A stretch of 64,000 nucleotides of DNA. It comes from Spongiibacter marinus. GTDB taxonomy: Bacteria; Pseudomonadota; Gammaproteobacteria; Pseudomonadales; Spongiibacteraceae. Below, piece after piece: positions 57,613 through 64,000 of this stretch (positions are counted from its first letter, which is position 1; every line of letters starts with the position of its first letter). Made by a program: the position numbers and the translations under genes. Location of the stretch: the NCBI RefSeq assembly GCF_016906995.1, contig NZ_JAFBBD010000003.1, forward strand, positions 310,001 to 374,000, in the 5' to 3' direction. A model generated the notes under the pieces. It did no database searches and was not told the DNA's origin. It saw only the letters and a program-made list of their open reading frames with translations.

Positions 57613-58329
57613 ATGCAAATTCGTGCAAATCAGGTAGCCGTCATTACCGGTGCCGGTAGCGGAATCGGTGCTGCGCTGGCGACAGCCTGTGCGAAGCGCG
57701 GCCTGCGGGTGCTAGTGGCGGATATCGAATACGAGGCCGCCGAAGCGACTGCGTCTAGACTGCGCAAAGCGGGGGCCAAGGCAAACGCTTATCAGGTCGA
57801 TGTCAGCGATTCGGAAGAGGTCTACGCCATGGCTGATCATTGTCAAAAACTGTTCGGCGGTTGTGATTTACTGTGCAACAACGCGGGAGTCTCAATCCAA
57901 AAGCCAATCGAAGAGATGAGCCCCGCTGATTGGTCATGGCTTGTATCGGTGAATACATTAGGAGTTGCCCACTCCCTGAGTGCATTCCTGCCTATTATGC
58001 GGCAACAGCAGCAGGGCTACATAGTTAACACCGCATCTATGGCTGGCTTGACTCCACTTTGTAACTTCGGTGCGTACACCGCCAGCAAGTATGCTGTCGT
58101 CGGCATGTCCGAGGTCCTGAAGGAAGAACTAAAAGACAGCCACCTTGGCGTATCTGTCCTGTGTCCCGGCATTGTGAAAACTCAGATTTATCAAAGCGAA
58201 CGTAACCGCCCCGATAATGCCAACATCGCCCCTCCTCAGTCCAAAGCCTCCATGGAAACCGACTTCGATTCAATAAAAATCTCAGCATCGTCGTCAACTT
58301 TTGACAAAGCAGATTCAACGAGGTGTTGA
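57613..58329 (+). pseudogene. SDR oxidoreductase truncated at element junction
   Basis: The SDR frame is normal to about 58250: VITGAGSGIGAALATACAKRG, NNAGVSIQKPIE, NTASMAGLT and YTASKYAVVGMSE. After SVLCPGIVKTQIYQSERNRPDNANIAPP the family sequence stops. The last residues (TDFDSIKISASSSTFDKADSTRC) are the antisense of the element gene on the other strand. Usual members continue for 40-60 residues with the helix that closes the substrate pocket. The loss coincides with the edge of the conjugative element. Confidence 0.8.
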
Positions 58330-60152
58330 GCACGTGGGGAACCTATTGATTGAGCTAATTTAGCTACCCTAATTAGAGACTGAGGATTAGCATCGTCTCT
58401 ACCCTTCCATTCTTCTTCAACAAAGTGATGAAGACTTTCCCAATCTCCAGAAGAGATGGCTATGTTAACAAGAAGTTCTTTATGTCTATCTTTAACTTTT
58501 GAGTCTTCAATTAACTCCAGTTCTTTCTTGGCGTCTGAGAATCGGCCAAGCTGATAATAACTGACCGCCATCAATCCTCGAAGTTGATCGGACTGACATA
58601 CAAAGTCAGAATTTTCATTGAGAAATTTCAATACCTCATCAGGTTGCTTACAGTAATGTATCGAAAATGCCAAACTGATTGCATCTTCTAATGATCGGGT
58701 TCTTTCAAATAGATCCAATGCATAACCATGCATTTCTTCCCATTCAGACAGGTTTTCTAGTTTCTTTACCAGAAGAACGAGATCTGGCAACTCGTTTGTT
58801 CTATTAAATTGCTCCTTATATTTACCAATTGACTCATCACCACATGACTCGGCGATAATATTCTCAAGCTTTAATCTTTGAGCTTCAGGCAATCCATATT
58901 CAATCAACTCGGTCAAGCAAGACGATGCTGCATCAACGTCACCACTTCTGGATAGCGCTTCAATTTGAATTGAGTCGATATAAATTCTGTCTAGGCATTG
59001 GTATAGCTGGTCTTTATACTTCCATACATATTGAGCGACATCCTTGGGGGAATTTTGCTCAAACGCTAAAGCTAACCGGCCCAGTGCAATCTCTGTAGAG
59101 ATTCCTCCGGAACGAACAATACTTTGCTGTATTTCTGATTCAAACTGTTTTAGATCGATCGGAATCCCAAATTGTAGTGCCAATGGAACTCTTCTAATTT
59201 TGTGGTCTGAATCACTCAGGCTTGCTTTTAACTCATCTAAAGCATCAGTCCTTAATTCGGTGTCTCTTAGACGCAACCAAAGATTATAGTCACTTGCGAT
59301 ATTTGCAGCTTGACTACAACCTGAATTTTCTGCCGCCTTGCTACACAACAAAAAATTACGAATAGCCAGCCTGCGACTATTTAGAGAAACATCGTCATCA
59401 AACAATCTAATTGATGCATCTAAAGGCGGGTGCCTCAATAAAGCACTTCTTAATTCTTCTGGAGCAGCTTTAAGCAAATTTGATAATGCGGCACTAAAGT
59501 ACAATACAGGCGTTATTTCAAAGTCTTGACTTACAAGCTTCCCTACACAGTCAAATGCTTCATCCCAGTTTCCAGCATCTAATTGATGAGATATGAATAA
59601 AAACTTGCCATCAGAGTCTAGATCAAGAAAGTCATGCCCTGCACTTTTCAGCCATTCAATACCCTCTGCGGGGGTATCGTGGTGAATGACCACTAAGAAG
59701 CAAGCCGTAACTGACTGTAAAGTGTCAATTTTCGACAAAATTGACAGCGCTAACGATCTATCACCTTCTGAAGAGGCAATGAAAGCCTTAGCGATAGAAA
59801 CCTCTTCCGACCCTGAGTGTTTCTCGGCTTCTTCAAGAGATTTTTTAGCAGCAGCTATATCCTTATATGCAAGAACCCTTGAACACCAAGCTAAAGCTAT
59901 ACCCCTTACTGGATCAGCACTTGCGGAATACTCCCCATCCAAAAGCTTATGACAAAACTTCTTTGCCCGGTCTGCAGGCTCTACTTCTCCTACAAAAAAT
60001 CGCGCTGCCCTTAAGTCCAATAATTCCTGTGCTATGGTCTTTGAAACAATGTTTTGCGGGTAGGAGTTTAAAAAATAGTTGTACTGATTGTTTCCATCAC
60101 CTATTTGAGCCCCTTGAACATTAAGAGGGTTGCTTCCATCATTTTCAGACAT
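58236..60152 (-). CDS. Helical-repeat protein with N-terminal RHIM-like motif
   Basis: 638 residues from ATG 60152. Residues about 11-27 read NVQGAQIGDGNNQYNYF, matching the C-terminal motif of the neighbouring small protein (QIGDxNxQxN). The rest is almost all helical, with degenerate TPR-like pairs (for example AVSYYQLGRFSDAKKELELIED, NIAISSGDWESLHHFVEEEW, LAFSIHYCKQPDEVLKFLNE). No NTPase, nuclease or membrane segment is visible. It looks like a sensor or scaffold that presents an amyloid seed. The gene is A+T-rich against its neighbours. Its end lies on the junction with the truncated SDR, so the C-terminus may be altered. Confidence 0.7.
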   Translation of the reverse strand: MSENDGSNPLNVQGAQIGDGNNQYNYFLNSYPQNIVSKTIAQELLDLRAARFFVGEVEPADRAKKFCHKLLDGEYSASADPVRGIALAWCSRVLAYKDIAAAKKSLEEAEKHSGSEEVSIAKAFIASSEGDRSLALSILSKIDTLQSVTACFLVVIHHDTPAEGIEWLKSAGHDFLDLDSDGKFLFISHQLDAGNWDEAFDCVGKLVSQDFEITPVLYFSAALSNLLKAAPEELRSALLRHPPLDASIRLFDDDVSLNSRRLAIRNFLLCSKAAENSGCSQAANIASDYNLWLRLRDTELRTDALDELKASLSDSDHKIRRVPLALQFGIPIDLKQFESEIQQSIVRSGGISTEIALGRLALAFEQNSPKDVAQYVWKYKDQLYQCLDRIYIDSIQIEALSRSGDVDAASSCLTELIEYGLPEAQRLKLENIIAESCGDESIGKYKEQFNRTNELPDLVLLVKKLENLSEWEEMHGYALDLFERTRSLEDAISLAFSIHYCKQPDEVLKFLNENSDFVCQSDQLRGLMAVSYYQLGRFSDAKKELELIEDSKVKDRHKELLVNIAISSGDWESLHHFVEEEWKGRDDANPQSLIRVAKLAQSIGSPRAQHLVESALSKVDDDAEIFIESKSVSMEALD

Positions 60153-60178
60153 AACTAATTCCTGCCCCCTCAACTTGG

Positions 60179-60580
60179 CTAAAATTTATTAATTTGCGTG
60201 TTATTGTCCCCTATCTGAACCCCTTTTCCGCCTTGAACAGTTACATTGTATTTGCCAGTATCGAAACCGTTCTTATCTAACAGCTCATATAGCGCCTGAG
60301 CTTTATCAACAAGCTCAGCCGAAGGCTCAGGTATGGATTCAGACAATTTCTTTTCAACTGGCACCTGAAATGTTTCGGGGTCATCCTCCAAATTAGATAT
60401 TAATATATTGGCTTCTTGCTCCAGCTTACTGTCATTACCACTAACTTGGTTGTTCCAATGATGAATAACCAAAGTTCTTAAACCAGAATATGCGTCTTTA
60501 ACTGCTTGGCTAGCAGTATCTTTTAACGCGGCAGATGAGCCCGCCACTAGTGCGCCAACTATCATCGAAATAGGTTCCAT
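60179..60580 (-). CDS. Small Bell-like effector with C-terminal RHIM-like motif
   Basis: 133 residues. The N-terminus (MEPISMIVGALVAGSSAALKDTASQAVKDAYSGLRTLV) is a hydrophobic/amphipathic helix followed by a helix rich in Ala. This is the pattern of Bell-type effector domains that accompany bacterial NLRs and resemble fungal HeLo domains. The C-terminus YNVTVQGGKGVQIGDNNTQINKF has the VQIG core of RHIM amyloids (RIPK3 has GVQVGDNN). The last residue is Phe. It starts the operon, 26 bases before the helical-repeat gene. Predicted to attack membranes when its tail is templated; this is inference. Confidence 0.7.
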   Translation of the reverse strand: MEPISMIVGALVAGSSAALKDTASQAVKDAYSGLRTLVIHHWNNQVSGNDSKLEQEANILISNLEDDPETFQVPVEKKLSESIPEPSAELVDKAQALYELLDKNGFDTGKYNVTVQGGKGVQIGDNNTQINKF

Positions 60581-60715: not shown

Positions 60716-61444
60716 TCAAAAGTACTTCTTTAACCTCTCAAACGCTACACGAACAGCCAAACCATAAAGGCAAGCAAAGGGCAGGATGATAAAGGAGGGA
60801 TTTAAACTATATGGAAGGCCAATATAGATCACACAGGCCATAACAAATGCAGGCATGATAGATCGTTTGGCCAGGTTAAAGACGTTGCTGCTTTCCCTGC
60901 CACCACCCCAGCGCCTGAGGTCTCGTTCTACCAAACCATCAATCGCCCCAACTAATCCGGTGAGTGCGAAAACCGGTAACGAGAATAGAATCAACGTCAA
61001 CCGGATAACAAAGGTCTGCGAGACATAACCTGCCGCTAGAATATAGCTATCATAGCGGCTATAGAGCCCACTTGCCCAGTCTGCAACCGCTGAAAAAATT
61101 CTACCTGAGTCGTTTGGTGGCGTTTGCTTGACGCCCATCAACGCTACTTGCTGATCGATCCAGCGAACAGCCCGCTCTGCCTTTACAGAAGCTAGGCGTT
61201 TGTAATTCACAGACTGCTGCTGGAGGTGTTGGTTGAGGTAGGCCTGATCGGCTTGGAATATTTCTTTGGCGTGGCCATCTCTCTGATCTGGCCAGAAATA
61301 CACCATACCCACCCACTCGATGAAAATAGAGAGTATCAGGCTAATTATTAACCAGGCAATTAGCTGCGTAGTGCCAGAGAGCAACCTGCCTATGAGACCG
61401 GGTTCTTTTCTTTTAGGGGGCTGATACTGCTGTGACTTGGCCAT
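60716..61444 (-). CDS. ICE membrane protein, TIGR03747/PFL_4697 family
   Basis: 242 residues with four membrane segments (about 25-50, 135-155, 165-185, 200-225). RWGGGRESSNVFNLAKRSIMPAFVM and GAIDGLVERDLRRW are family marks of the integrating-conjugative-element protein DUF4400/TIGR03747, found next to traD. It probably belongs to the mating-pore or coupling complex in the inner membrane. It follows traD by 17 bases on the same strand. Confidence 0.87.
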   Translation of the reverse strand: MAKSQQYQPPKRKEPGLIGRLLSGTTQLIAWLIISLILSIFIEWVGMVYFWPDQRDGHAKEIFQADQAYLNQHLQQQSVNYKRLASVKAERAVRWIDQQVALMGVKQTPPNDSGRIFSAVADWASGLYSRYDSYILAAGYVSQTFVIRLTLILFSLPVFALTGLVGAIDGLVERDLRRWGGGRESSNVFNLAKRSIMPAFVMACVIYIGLPYSLNPSFIILPFACLYGLAVRVAFERLKKYF

Positions 61445-61461: not shown

Positions 61462-63534
61462 CTATCGGCCACTCATACTGCTAGAGTAACTGGACCAGTC
61501 CACAACTGACGTATAACTGCGCCGCATATGCTGAAGCATGTCGCCCAAATCGTCGGGCAGTTCCTGATCATCCATTTTGGACGGCATGGGAATACGGATT
61601 TTCCACAGTTCACTGCCCCTGAGCAGGACGAATGCCTGCCCTTTGGGAAGCGCCACAATATCGGCGGGGGAGATCATAGGCACACGGCTGATGCTGACCC
61701 GATCCTGATTATTGGAGGTAAAACCAATGCCAGCTGAGGTATCGACATTGTCGGTGACGCCGGAAACCGCCATGATTTCGCTGACACTCACCTCCGGCAG
61801 CTGCCTGGTGAACATTTCACAGGTGGCCACCTCCTTCACGCCCATGATCAGCATAGTGCCGATGTTGCCAGCCAACTGCCCGGCTTTCGCCTCGCTACCC
61901 AACTCGGCAATCGGGTCGCTCCAGGTTTGGGTATACAAATTAAGCTGGTAACCAGCACCGCCGCTTTTATTAATCAGCGTCTTGAACTGCGGCCCGATCA
62001 AGTCGGAGAACTCGTCCCCGTGGATCACAATATCCGGCGGTTTCTTGGCGTACTCGTTCGTCTTACTTGGCGCTATGCCATGCTTATAAATATGGCCCGC
62101 CAAACTGGTCAGGTCACTGAACATGGAAGCGCCCACCGCACTGGCTACTTCTGGATCGGTGAGTGCGTCCAGTCCCACATAGACCACAGCGTTAGACCTT
62201 ATCGCTTGCGCCCATTCCAACACCGGACGTTGATCGTCGGTATTCGCCTTATCGGGTGCCAGGATCGATGCGATGTTGCCCGTGGTTAGCTTTTCCAGAA
62301 AGGGCTTGATGGACACCGTGATTTTCAGGAAATACTCACGGTCATAGCGGAAAGCAGACATTAGCCCTTCTAACACCTGATCGAAAGTCGCATGGGTATT
62401 GAGATAGCGCACCATTGCCAGTGCTTCGGGGTCTTTGCCCTGATCGATCCTTGGCAACGACTTCAGGTTGATACTGTCTTGCAGTTCCCCCAACTCATCC
62501 TGCCAATCCTCCGGACCATTTTCAGCCAGCCAATGGCGGCCATACAGAATCAACAGAGCATCAATATCGGTGATATAACGACGAATTTTTAGGTAATCCG
62601 GAGTTTCGCCCATCGCCACTAACGCTACTGCAATGACGTTGATAAATTGCCAGGCAAATTCTTTAAACGCACTGGCCTCCCCTTCGCCCGGTAGCTGGCT
62701 GGCGATTCGCGTCGCAACTTCTGTAATCCGTGAAAAGGAACCAATGGCATTGTAACGGGCGCTCAGCTCGGGATAGCCCAGATGAAAGATAATGAGTTGA
62801 CGCCCTGCTTTCTGGGATTCGACATAGATACGCTTTAGATAATCGGCGTCTCCTTTCGGGTCTAACACAATGACACAGTTGTTGCCGCGTCGAATATCCT
62901 GGGTGGTCAGCACCTCGGCCAGCCGGGTTTTGCCATGGCGCGTTCGAGCAACAACCACCATATGTCCAACCCGGTCACTAAGCGGCATGGTGGCATTGGT
63001 TTCCCCTCTGATCCCGACGCCGTGTATGACGGCATCGCCCCCGATAGCTGGCGGGGGACGGACGGGGTTCAGAGGGGAATCTAGTGCGGTCCATCGCATG
63101 ATCGTTCGCAATAGGGGTTTATGCTCCCATTCGATCTCTTTGCGACGAACCCATTGCTTGATGGCGCTGGGCTGCAGATAACGTTCAGCGCGTTTATCGC
63201 GGGCAGCATAGAGCCGCTCTGTGTGTGTCTGGTTCCAGCGAAAGCCTCGCCCTAAGAACAACACCGACTGACTCACCGGCACTTGGGATGATGACATGAC
63301 ATAGCGCGGGCTGCGCTTGAGATGACGCTGATATTGAATCACACGCCAGGCCTGGCGAGCTCGCCAAACACCCACCCCACCCAGACACCCGGCGCTGAAC
63401 AAAGCAACCGATGGCGTCATCATCAAGATACGCGGTGCAGCTAACACGATCCCCGCACAACTCAGCGCCACTATCGCCGAAGACAATTCCACAGGGGGAC
63501 GTAACAACACCTCGACTTCATACCGGTCGGTCAC
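61462..63534 (-). CDS. traD: Conjugative coupling factor TraD (SXT/TOL type)
   Basis: 690 residues from GTG 63534, which overlaps the preceding stop (GTGA). Two N-terminal membrane segments (about residues 20-55). VVVARTRHGKTRLAEVL is Walker A and DIVIHGDEFSDLIGPQ is Walker B. VIVLDPKGDADYLKRIY and NLYTQTWSDPIAELGS are typical for TraD/VirD4-type ATPases of ICEs. It brings the relaxosome to the type IV secretion channel. Confidence 0.93.
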   Translation of the reverse strand: MTDRYEVEVLLRPPVELSSAIVALSCAGIVLAAPRILMMTPSVALFSAGCLGGVGVWRARQAWRVIQYQRHLKRSPRYVMSSSQVPVSQSVLFLGRGFRWNQTHTERLYAARDKRAERYLQPSAIKQWVRRKEIEWEHKPLLRTIMRWTALDSPLNPVRPPPAIGGDAVIHGVGIRGETNATMPLSDRVGHMVVVARTRHGKTRLAEVLTTQDIRRGNNCVIVLDPKGDADYLKRIYVESQKAGRQLIIFHLGYPELSARYNAIGSFSRITEVATRIASQLPGEGEASAFKEFAWQFINVIAVALVAMGETPDYLKIRRYITDIDALLILYGRHWLAENGPEDWQDELGELQDSINLKSLPRIDQGKDPEALAMVRYLNTHATFDQVLEGLMSAFRYDREYFLKITVSIKPFLEKLTTGNIASILAPDKANTDDQRPVLEWAQAIRSNAVVYVGLDALTDPEVASAVGASMFSDLTSLAGHIYKHGIAPSKTNEYAKKPPDIVIHGDEFSDLIGPQFKTLINKSGGAGYQLNLYTQTWSDPIAELGSEAKAGQLAGNIGTMLIMGVKEVATCEMFTRQLPEVSVSEIMAVSGVTDNVDTSAGIGFTSNNQDRVSISRVPMISPADIVALPKGQAFVLLRGSELWKIRIPMPSKMDDQELPDDLGDMLQHMRRSYTSVVDWSSYSSSMSGR

Positions 63535-64000
63535 TGCTCCCACCCCTCTTTTGATAGCAGGATTGGGTAGTAGCTCAAACCCAGCTTAGTGGCGAAGCCT
63601 TCGGCTGAAGCAGGCACCAAACGAAGTCCTTTCGCGATAGCCAAAACCGCCTCAATCTCCTGACGATCCTTCGCCTCAACCAATAGGCCAACGGCTCCGA
63701 TACGGATAAGCAGCTCGCGCTTTTCAGCAAGCCAGTCTCGTGATTTCTGATCAGCCCCCACCAAAAACAAGGGTCGCTGCAAATAACGTAATGCTTTTGG
63801 GGTGACTGTGACTTTACCCGGCTGCATTGAAGGTGTGGTGATCGGCAGCTTGAACGGCAACTGCCGATTCGCGTCCTGAGTGGTGGTCTTTTCCTGTGGC
63901 GCTCGTTTCGGCAGATAGGGTCCAAGCGGTAAGGTATCGCCTGATTCATAAATCACGGTTAGTGGTTCTCTGGCGTGAGCGCCTAAACACAAAAACAGAC
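63531..64000 (-). CDS. ICE protein, PFL_4695 family (TIGR03765), 5' end outside window
   Basis: The frame is open to the right edge. The visible part starts LFLCLGAHA, the end of a signal peptide, then REPLTVIYESGDTLPLGPYL. The C-terminal half (PLFLVGADQKSRDWLAEKRELLIRIGAVGLLVEAKD, LGLSYYPILLSKEGWEQ) is the PFL_4695/TIGR03765 family of integrating conjugative elements. Probably periplasmic, in mating-pair formation. Stop overlaps the traD start. Confidence 0.87.
   Translation of the reverse strand, partial: LFLCLGAHAREPLTVIYESGDTLPLGPYLPKRAPQEKTTTQDANRQLPFKLPITTPSMQPGKVTVTPKALRYLQRPLFLVGADQKSRDWLAEKRELLIRIGAVGLLVEAKDRQEIEAVLAIAKGLRLVPASAEGFATKLGLSYYPILLSKEGWEQ

Follow-up and report, generated by a model that had tools for sequence, protein, structure and literature searches.

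The 64,000-nucleotide stretch of the Spongiibacter marinus genome analysed here (hereafter, the window) probably carries the left-hand portion of a conflict module of three genes, borne on an integrative conjugative element (ICE). The complete module would consist of a Bell-like effector, a TPR-GreAB-C-PIN (TGP) receptor equipped with a BASS3/RHIM-type motif, and a permuted-GreAB-C partner; amyloid formation, a trigger and cell killing are inferred for it. Catalogues of bacterial amyloid signalling have centred on NLR receptors, which are STAND ATPases. The receptor described here has no detectable ATPase of this kind.

A truncated receptor gene and its intact counterparts

The gene encoding a small, 133-aa protein is followed by a large minus-strand ORF (58236-60173), whose likely start is an ATG at 60152, 26 bases past the stop of the 133-aa ORF (Table 1). 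Pfam detected a TPR_19 domain in it (E = 1.7e-6). By scanning 84,980 species genomes, we retrieved three loci with elements matching the window (L012, L013 and L014), with identities over 5.7 kb of 99.98% for L012 and L014 and 96.3% for L013. The window and two other elements have 5,728 bp in common at 99.98% identity down to position 58273, where the window switches abruptly to a short-chain dehydrogenase (SDR) gene; L012, L013 and L014 all agree with the window down to this point and differ from it beyond. In L012, the receptor gene continues to 1262 codons (1255 aa from the ATG; protein A); after a gap of 2 bases come a gene for a 646-aa protein (protein B) and then further conjugation genes. 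The large ORF of the window is thus a truncated copy and not a natural gene.

Table 1 Features of the module and its surroundings in the window.
Feature	Position	Strand	Basis
SDR gene, 5' part, cut at the junction	57613..58272	+	Profile match stops at residue 213 (family length 295 aa)
Fortuitous extension of the interrupted receptor frame into the complementary strand of the SDR gene, ending ...ESKSVSMEALD	58236..58272	-	Unlike L012-L014 beyond 58273
Receptor gene (TGP protein A), 5' part: N-terminal motif and TPR region, without HTH-PIN-PIN	58273..60152	-	99.98% identity to L012 up to 58273; Pfam TPR_19
Receptor-side RHIM/BASS3-like motif GAQIGDGNNQYNYF (Q16, Q23 from the ATG)	60072..60113	-	Alignments to effector motif and BASS3 peptide; Pfam alone misses the motif
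Bell-like effector, 133 aa	60179..60580	-	ORF; relatives beside NLRs on plasmids; hydropathy
Effector-side RHIM/BASS3-like motif GVQIGDNNTQINKF (Q122, Q129)	60182..60223	-	Pfam hits under cut-off (RHIM, EAD10); similarity to validated BASS3 peptide
ICE membrane protein TIGR03747, upstream border of the module	60716..61444	-	Profile match; in other ICEs a RAQPRD-type gene comes next, without the module
TraD coupling protein (TIGR03754/TIGR03743)	61462..63543	-	Profile match
PFL_4695-family ICE protein (TIGR03765)	63531..63998 (gene runs past the window end to contig C3:374025)	-	Profile match

The half of the receptor gene missing from the window was not found in the rest of this genome, with the exception of 52 bp right at the junction. 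The 8 kb past the break in L012 have no counterpart elsewhere in this genome either, so that its conjugation set is not complete. At the break, we found no element-end repeat in the window and no SDR orthologue in relatives of the genus; the region after guaA is variable. The break at 58273 may be genuine, through deletion or rearrangement, or may be a product of assembly. Since the receptor and the third gene have been lost or misassembled in this genome, the window copy of the module is probably non-functional.

The intact proteins revealed the nature of the receptor. In addition to TPRs, Pfam identified in protein A of L012 an HTH_upst_double_PIN domain (PF24407, residues 666-735, E = 7e-19) and a PIN-TPR-GreABC domain (PF20698, residues 929-1040, E = 4e-15). 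Protein B, whose gene is not in the window, matched Permuted_GreAB-C (PF24388) weakly (E = 0.022), and homologues ~30% identical to it matched the same family at E = 1e-7 and 4e-10. Because intact copies carry the HTH-double-PIN region, two PIN matches and a permuted GreAB-C gene, we classify the intact receptor and its 646-aa partner as a TGP conflict system. The initial annotation had described a receptor with only helical repeats forming a minimal two-gene module, and neither description is supported: intact copies add the HTH-double-PIN region, and a further gene follows the receptor in them. The same annotation was right in finding no NB-ARC or NACHT domain, as Pfam detected no such STAND ATPase in either the window ORF or the intact 1255-aa protein. 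TGP systems, known from sequence analysis, are predicted to act on hijacked RNA polymerase, and their N-terminus is EAD10 or one of 13 effectors (Kaur et al. 2021, PMC8195603).

The receptor copies of L013 and L014 depart from that of L012 at different later points but share a short segment: the gene is interrupted near position 9943 in L013 and 10633 in L014, with a similar ~85-bp segment in both. These interruptions are probably insertion sequences, and there may be selection for loss of the receptor gene.

A pair of RHIM/BASS3-like motifs

The C-terminus of the 133-aa protein contains the motif GVQIGDNNTQINKF, its longer tail ending in ...VTVQGGKGVQIGDNNTQINKF, and the receptor, read from the likely ATG, begins with MSENDGSNPLNVQGAQIGDGNNQYNYF, which includes the motif GAQIGDGNNQYNYF. 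The arrangement is that originally proposed, with the effector motif C-terminal and the receptor motif N-terminal. Local alignment of the two motifs gave a score of 48, which 1 in 20,000 shuffled versions of the receptor N-terminus attained. As reference we used a Frankia BASS3 peptide (ORT49035.1, VDLRDAKGVQVGDGNVQINRF; PMC8086366), whose infrared spectra are of the aggregate type and which stains with Congo red (PMC8086366). The effector motif aligned to it with a score of 68 and the receptor motif with 51, and none of 20,000 shuffles was as good in either case. Both motifs share the conserved core of this validated BASS3 (GVQVGDGNVQINRF). In Streptomyces atratus BASS3, Q113 and Q120 lie 7 residues apart and proline mutants abolish foci (PMC9815663); the effector (Q122/Q129) and the receptor (Q16/Q23) both have glutamines at this 7-residue distance. 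These alignments uphold the claim of a RHIM-like motif pair, and amyloid formation by both motifs would be expected from their resemblance to BASS3.

Profile searches, which had been proposed as a check of the motifs, detected the effector side below cut-off and missed the receptor side. Pfam matched effector residues 103-128 with RHIM (E = 0.029) and EAD10 (PF19954, E = 6.5e-4), both under their curated cut-offs. The RHIM model scored 14.4 bits on the full-length effector, 17.9 on its tail (queried with a peptide bearing one wrong letter, outside the match) and 18.7 on the validated BASS3 peptide, against a curated cut-off of 20. This cut-off thus misses true BASS3 motifs, since the validated peptide itself falls below it. 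EAD10 reached 20.1 bits on the full-length protein and 21.4 on the same tail query, also short of its cut-off of 24.1. The receptor motif was not detected by Pfam on its own, and neither motif had any Pfam match above a curated cut-off. The EAD10 match overlaps the RHIM core of the effector and is suggestive only. An EAD10 survey of 399 Pseudomonadota genomes yielded mostly noise, and in none of nine of its loci that we checked was there a RHIM-like core in the EAD10-matching frame.

The Bell-like effector and motif covariation among its relatives

The small protein is predicted to combine an N-terminal hydrophobic helix, as judged from hydropathy, with the C-terminal amyloid motif. Its 15-residue stretch of highest hydropathy begins at residue 4 (mean 1.81), and an equal N-terminal stretch appeared in 49 of 5,000 shuffles. 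Helices were also predicted in a single-sequence structure model, but at its mean pLDDT of 54.9 any likeness to the HeLo/MLKL helical bundle would be tentative; a PDB search with the model gave no match at E <= 0.001, and nothing relevant emerged from the search of solved structures. PADLOC matched neither window protein, no relatives of the small protein or of the receptor were found in viral and phage collections, and a Bell survey of 399 genomes gave a single additional match, which was weak.

Relatives of the small protein do occur on conjugative plasmids of Arthrobacter, Sphaerospermopsis, Acaryochloris, Tolypothrix, Nostoc and Rhizobium. They share its N-terminal region at 30-38% identity and adjoin genes with the features of nucleotide-binding receptors (NACHT/NB-ARC; NLRs). 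This neighbourhood, together with the N-terminal hydrophobic helix, supports the earlier proposal of a Bell-like protein, and we consider it a probable membrane-killing effector.

The tail motifs of these relatives all differ. In an 8 x 8 matrix of motif scores, the best match of each tail was its own neighbour in all eight rows, and the observed sum of cognate scores was reached by 1 of the 40,320 possible assignments. For this matrix, the receptors of L006, L010 and L040 were extended upstream, in frame, from the annotated starts and the partner in L009 was picked by eye from two neighbours; L008 (no partner), L041 and L042 (non-NLR partners) were left outside. The survey of neighbours suggested in the initial annotation thus recovered the motif pairing, with NLRs as partners, and this cognate pairing corresponds, by its sequence pattern, to the Bell/BASS effector-receptor logic. 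Pairing of a Bell-like protein with a TGP receptor was found in one independent lineage, L012-L014 and the window being almost identical. Within the TGP branch we did not find a second Bell-TGP pair with a different motif, and the covariation concerns the wider Bell family.

Two further observations came from these plasmids. The NLR gene starts at L006:3902-4052 and L040:4406-4532 appear to be annotated too far downstream, the upstream frame encoding a motif that matches the tail of the neighbour. In Rhodococcus and Gordonia plasmids (L041:3851-5106 and L042:4001-5154), Bell-like proteins are followed by a non-NLR protein of ~200 aa with a short N-terminal glycine/asparagine motif; these may be a further case of NLR-free amyloid pairing.

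Effector swapping at the receptor N-terminus

Homologous receptors carry diverse N-termini: a DUF676 esterase (L004), a transmembrane segment (L005), a nucleoside phosphorylase (L031), an HNH domain (L033), REase-like regions, recognised by inspection (L034-L036), and a caspase (L037). Given this swapping, the RHIM-like motif with its upstream Bell-like gene represents a further means of coupling an effector to the same receptor. In L032 (561-7515), a phosphorylase-bDLD3 protein is encoded just upstream of a bDLD3-TGP receptor, a wiring in trans like that of the window pair, with a Death-like domain as adaptor. The receptor is rare: PF24407 was present in 3 of 399 Pseudomonadota genomes, and protein A had a match in 2 of 274 genomes of the class, the one containing the window among them.

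A mobile module inside a conjugation operon

The module resides on an ICE with a TOL/SXT-like TraD and PFGI-type genes, whose integrase lies near the 3' end of guaA, ~15 kb past the window end. In comparable elements (L097-L100), a RAQPRD-type gene directly follows the TIGR03747 gene, and in L012 the three-gene module is placed between the two. The initial annotation had located the gene pair at the edge of a conjugative element. Carriage on such an element is borne out, but the module lies within the conjugation operon, and what looked like an edge is the break.

L012 and L013 differ by ~8% over PilL-TIGR03759 and TraD, but the stretch between TIGR03747 and the end of the sequenced portion of protein A is 99.7-100% identical in the two. 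Such identity of the module on backbones that are ~92% identical indicates that it has moved recently between them. The 99.98% identity over the element links this genome with L012 and L014, which are MAGs labelled Cellvibrionaceae and Alphaproteobacteria; identity at this level across such labels reflects either very recent transfer or shared misbinning. Just outside the window (contig C3:378833-386276), we observed by inspection metal-efflux-type genes, a cation diffusion facilitator and an RND pump, apparently on the same element.

Proposed mechanism and alternative explanations

We propose that gene 1 encodes a Bell-like membrane-active effector, that gene 2, intact only in the sister elements, encodes a TGP receptor in which the amyloid motif replaces an N-terminal effector of its own, and that gene 3 encodes its permuted-GreAB-C partner. 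The products of genes 2 and 3 would detect an invading agent, possibly at RNA polymerase or via RNA as proposed for TGP systems. Clustering of the receptors would then allow their N-terminal motifs to nucleate a cross-beta fold, which would template the same fold on the C-terminal motif of the Bell-like protein. Once clustered, the latter would insert its hydrophobic helix into the membrane and the infected cell would die, a candidate form of phage defence in which a STAND ATPase would not be needed.

The two tags might alternatively be a matching docking motif, for instance a beta-hairpin or beta-roll contact, mediating finite direct binding and no templated polymer. Amyloid is backed here only by sequence similarity, and EAD10, the best-scoring Pfam model on the motif, has been described as a mixed alpha+beta adaptor (PMC7159879), both of which would suit such docking. 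However, the peptide that both motifs match aggregates and binds Congo red (PMC8086366), and the spacing of their glutamines is that of the critical residues of the Streptomyces BASS3 (PMC9815663), so that we hold simple docking to be rather unlikely. It is more doubtful still that the genes form a toxin-antitoxin pair, in which the small protein would be a constitutive toxin held through its tail by the TPR protein and freed by loss or cleavage of the latter. A two-gene operon with a tail-to-head motif match and a short membrane-seeking protein upstream has the look of such a system, but in its intact form the partner is a multi-domain receptor of 1262 aa that belongs to an effector-swapping family and has a second subunit. 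The survival of the motif-bearing half beside the intact small gene in the window fits both readings.

That the 638-aa TPR-only protein might be a natural receptor and the window a complete two-gene system appears highly improbable. The reading frame is uninterrupted and both motifs are complete, but the identity to three elements stops exactly at 58273, the gene goes on to 1262 aa in L012, the SDR gene across the junction is also cut, and the missing parts are absent from the genome. We favour the three-gene module in which a TGP receptor controls a Bell-like effector, most likely through amyloid templating.

Relation to known systems and implications

Both halves of the module belong to known families, and it is their join that appears new in the literature searched. 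The TGP systems of Kaur et al. 2021 (PMC8195603) resemble it in their TPRs, HTH and PIN regions, GreAB-C-related partner and swappable N-terminus. They differ in that the receptor is here split over two genes and has an N-terminal RHIM/BASS3-like motif, with a Bell-like partner encoded by the adjacent upstream gene. The NLR-BASS-Bell signalosomes of Dyrka et al. 2020 (J Mol Biol 432:6005), as presented in PMC7889193 and PMC8086366, share the small Bell protein with a C-terminal motif, the adjacent receptor with a matching N-terminal motif and the BASS3 class, whereas the receptor here is a TGP protein with no detectable NB-ARC/NACHT ATPase. The bDLD3-coupled TGP pair (L032) similarly has its effector, a phosphorylase, in a separate upstream gene and matching adaptors, but the adaptor is a folded Death-like domain instead of a RHIM-like motif. 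The RIPK1-RIPK3 necrosome and the fungal HELLP-PNT1 pair (PP/RHIM) are alike by analogy in having a RHIM-related core and a membrane-active executioner; the remaining domains are non-homologous, and the present module is bacterial and carried by a mobile element.

In the literature that we searched, which comprised no preprints and few subscription papers, we did not find a BASS3-type motif and a Bell-like protein joined to an ATPase-free TGP receptor. In the text of Kaur et al. 2021 (PMC8195603), RHIM goes unmentioned and the lone occurrence of 'amyloid' is a reference title. Nevertheless, EAD10 is in that study the archetypal N-terminal adaptor of TGP (eLife, PMC8195603), and since the stretch that EAD10 matches best here is the RHIM-like core, part of this arrangement may already have been described under another name. 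We tentatively raise the possibility, which we regard as somewhat doubtful, that RHIM/BASS3-type amyloid templating serves ATPase-free TGP receptors in general as a plug-in adaptor and that EAD10 is the same RHIM-like motif. If true, bacterial RHIM signalling would serve receptors for RNA-polymerase or RNA surveillance besides NLRs.

A RHIM-like tag on an ATPase-free receptor would uncouple the amyloid switch from the NLR machine and link the BASS/Bell and EAD/TGP literatures, and it predicts a necrosome-like fibril nucleated by a TGP receptor. The near-identical modules on divergent conjugative-element backbones point to the horizontal movement of putative RHIM-like death circuits among marine bacteria.
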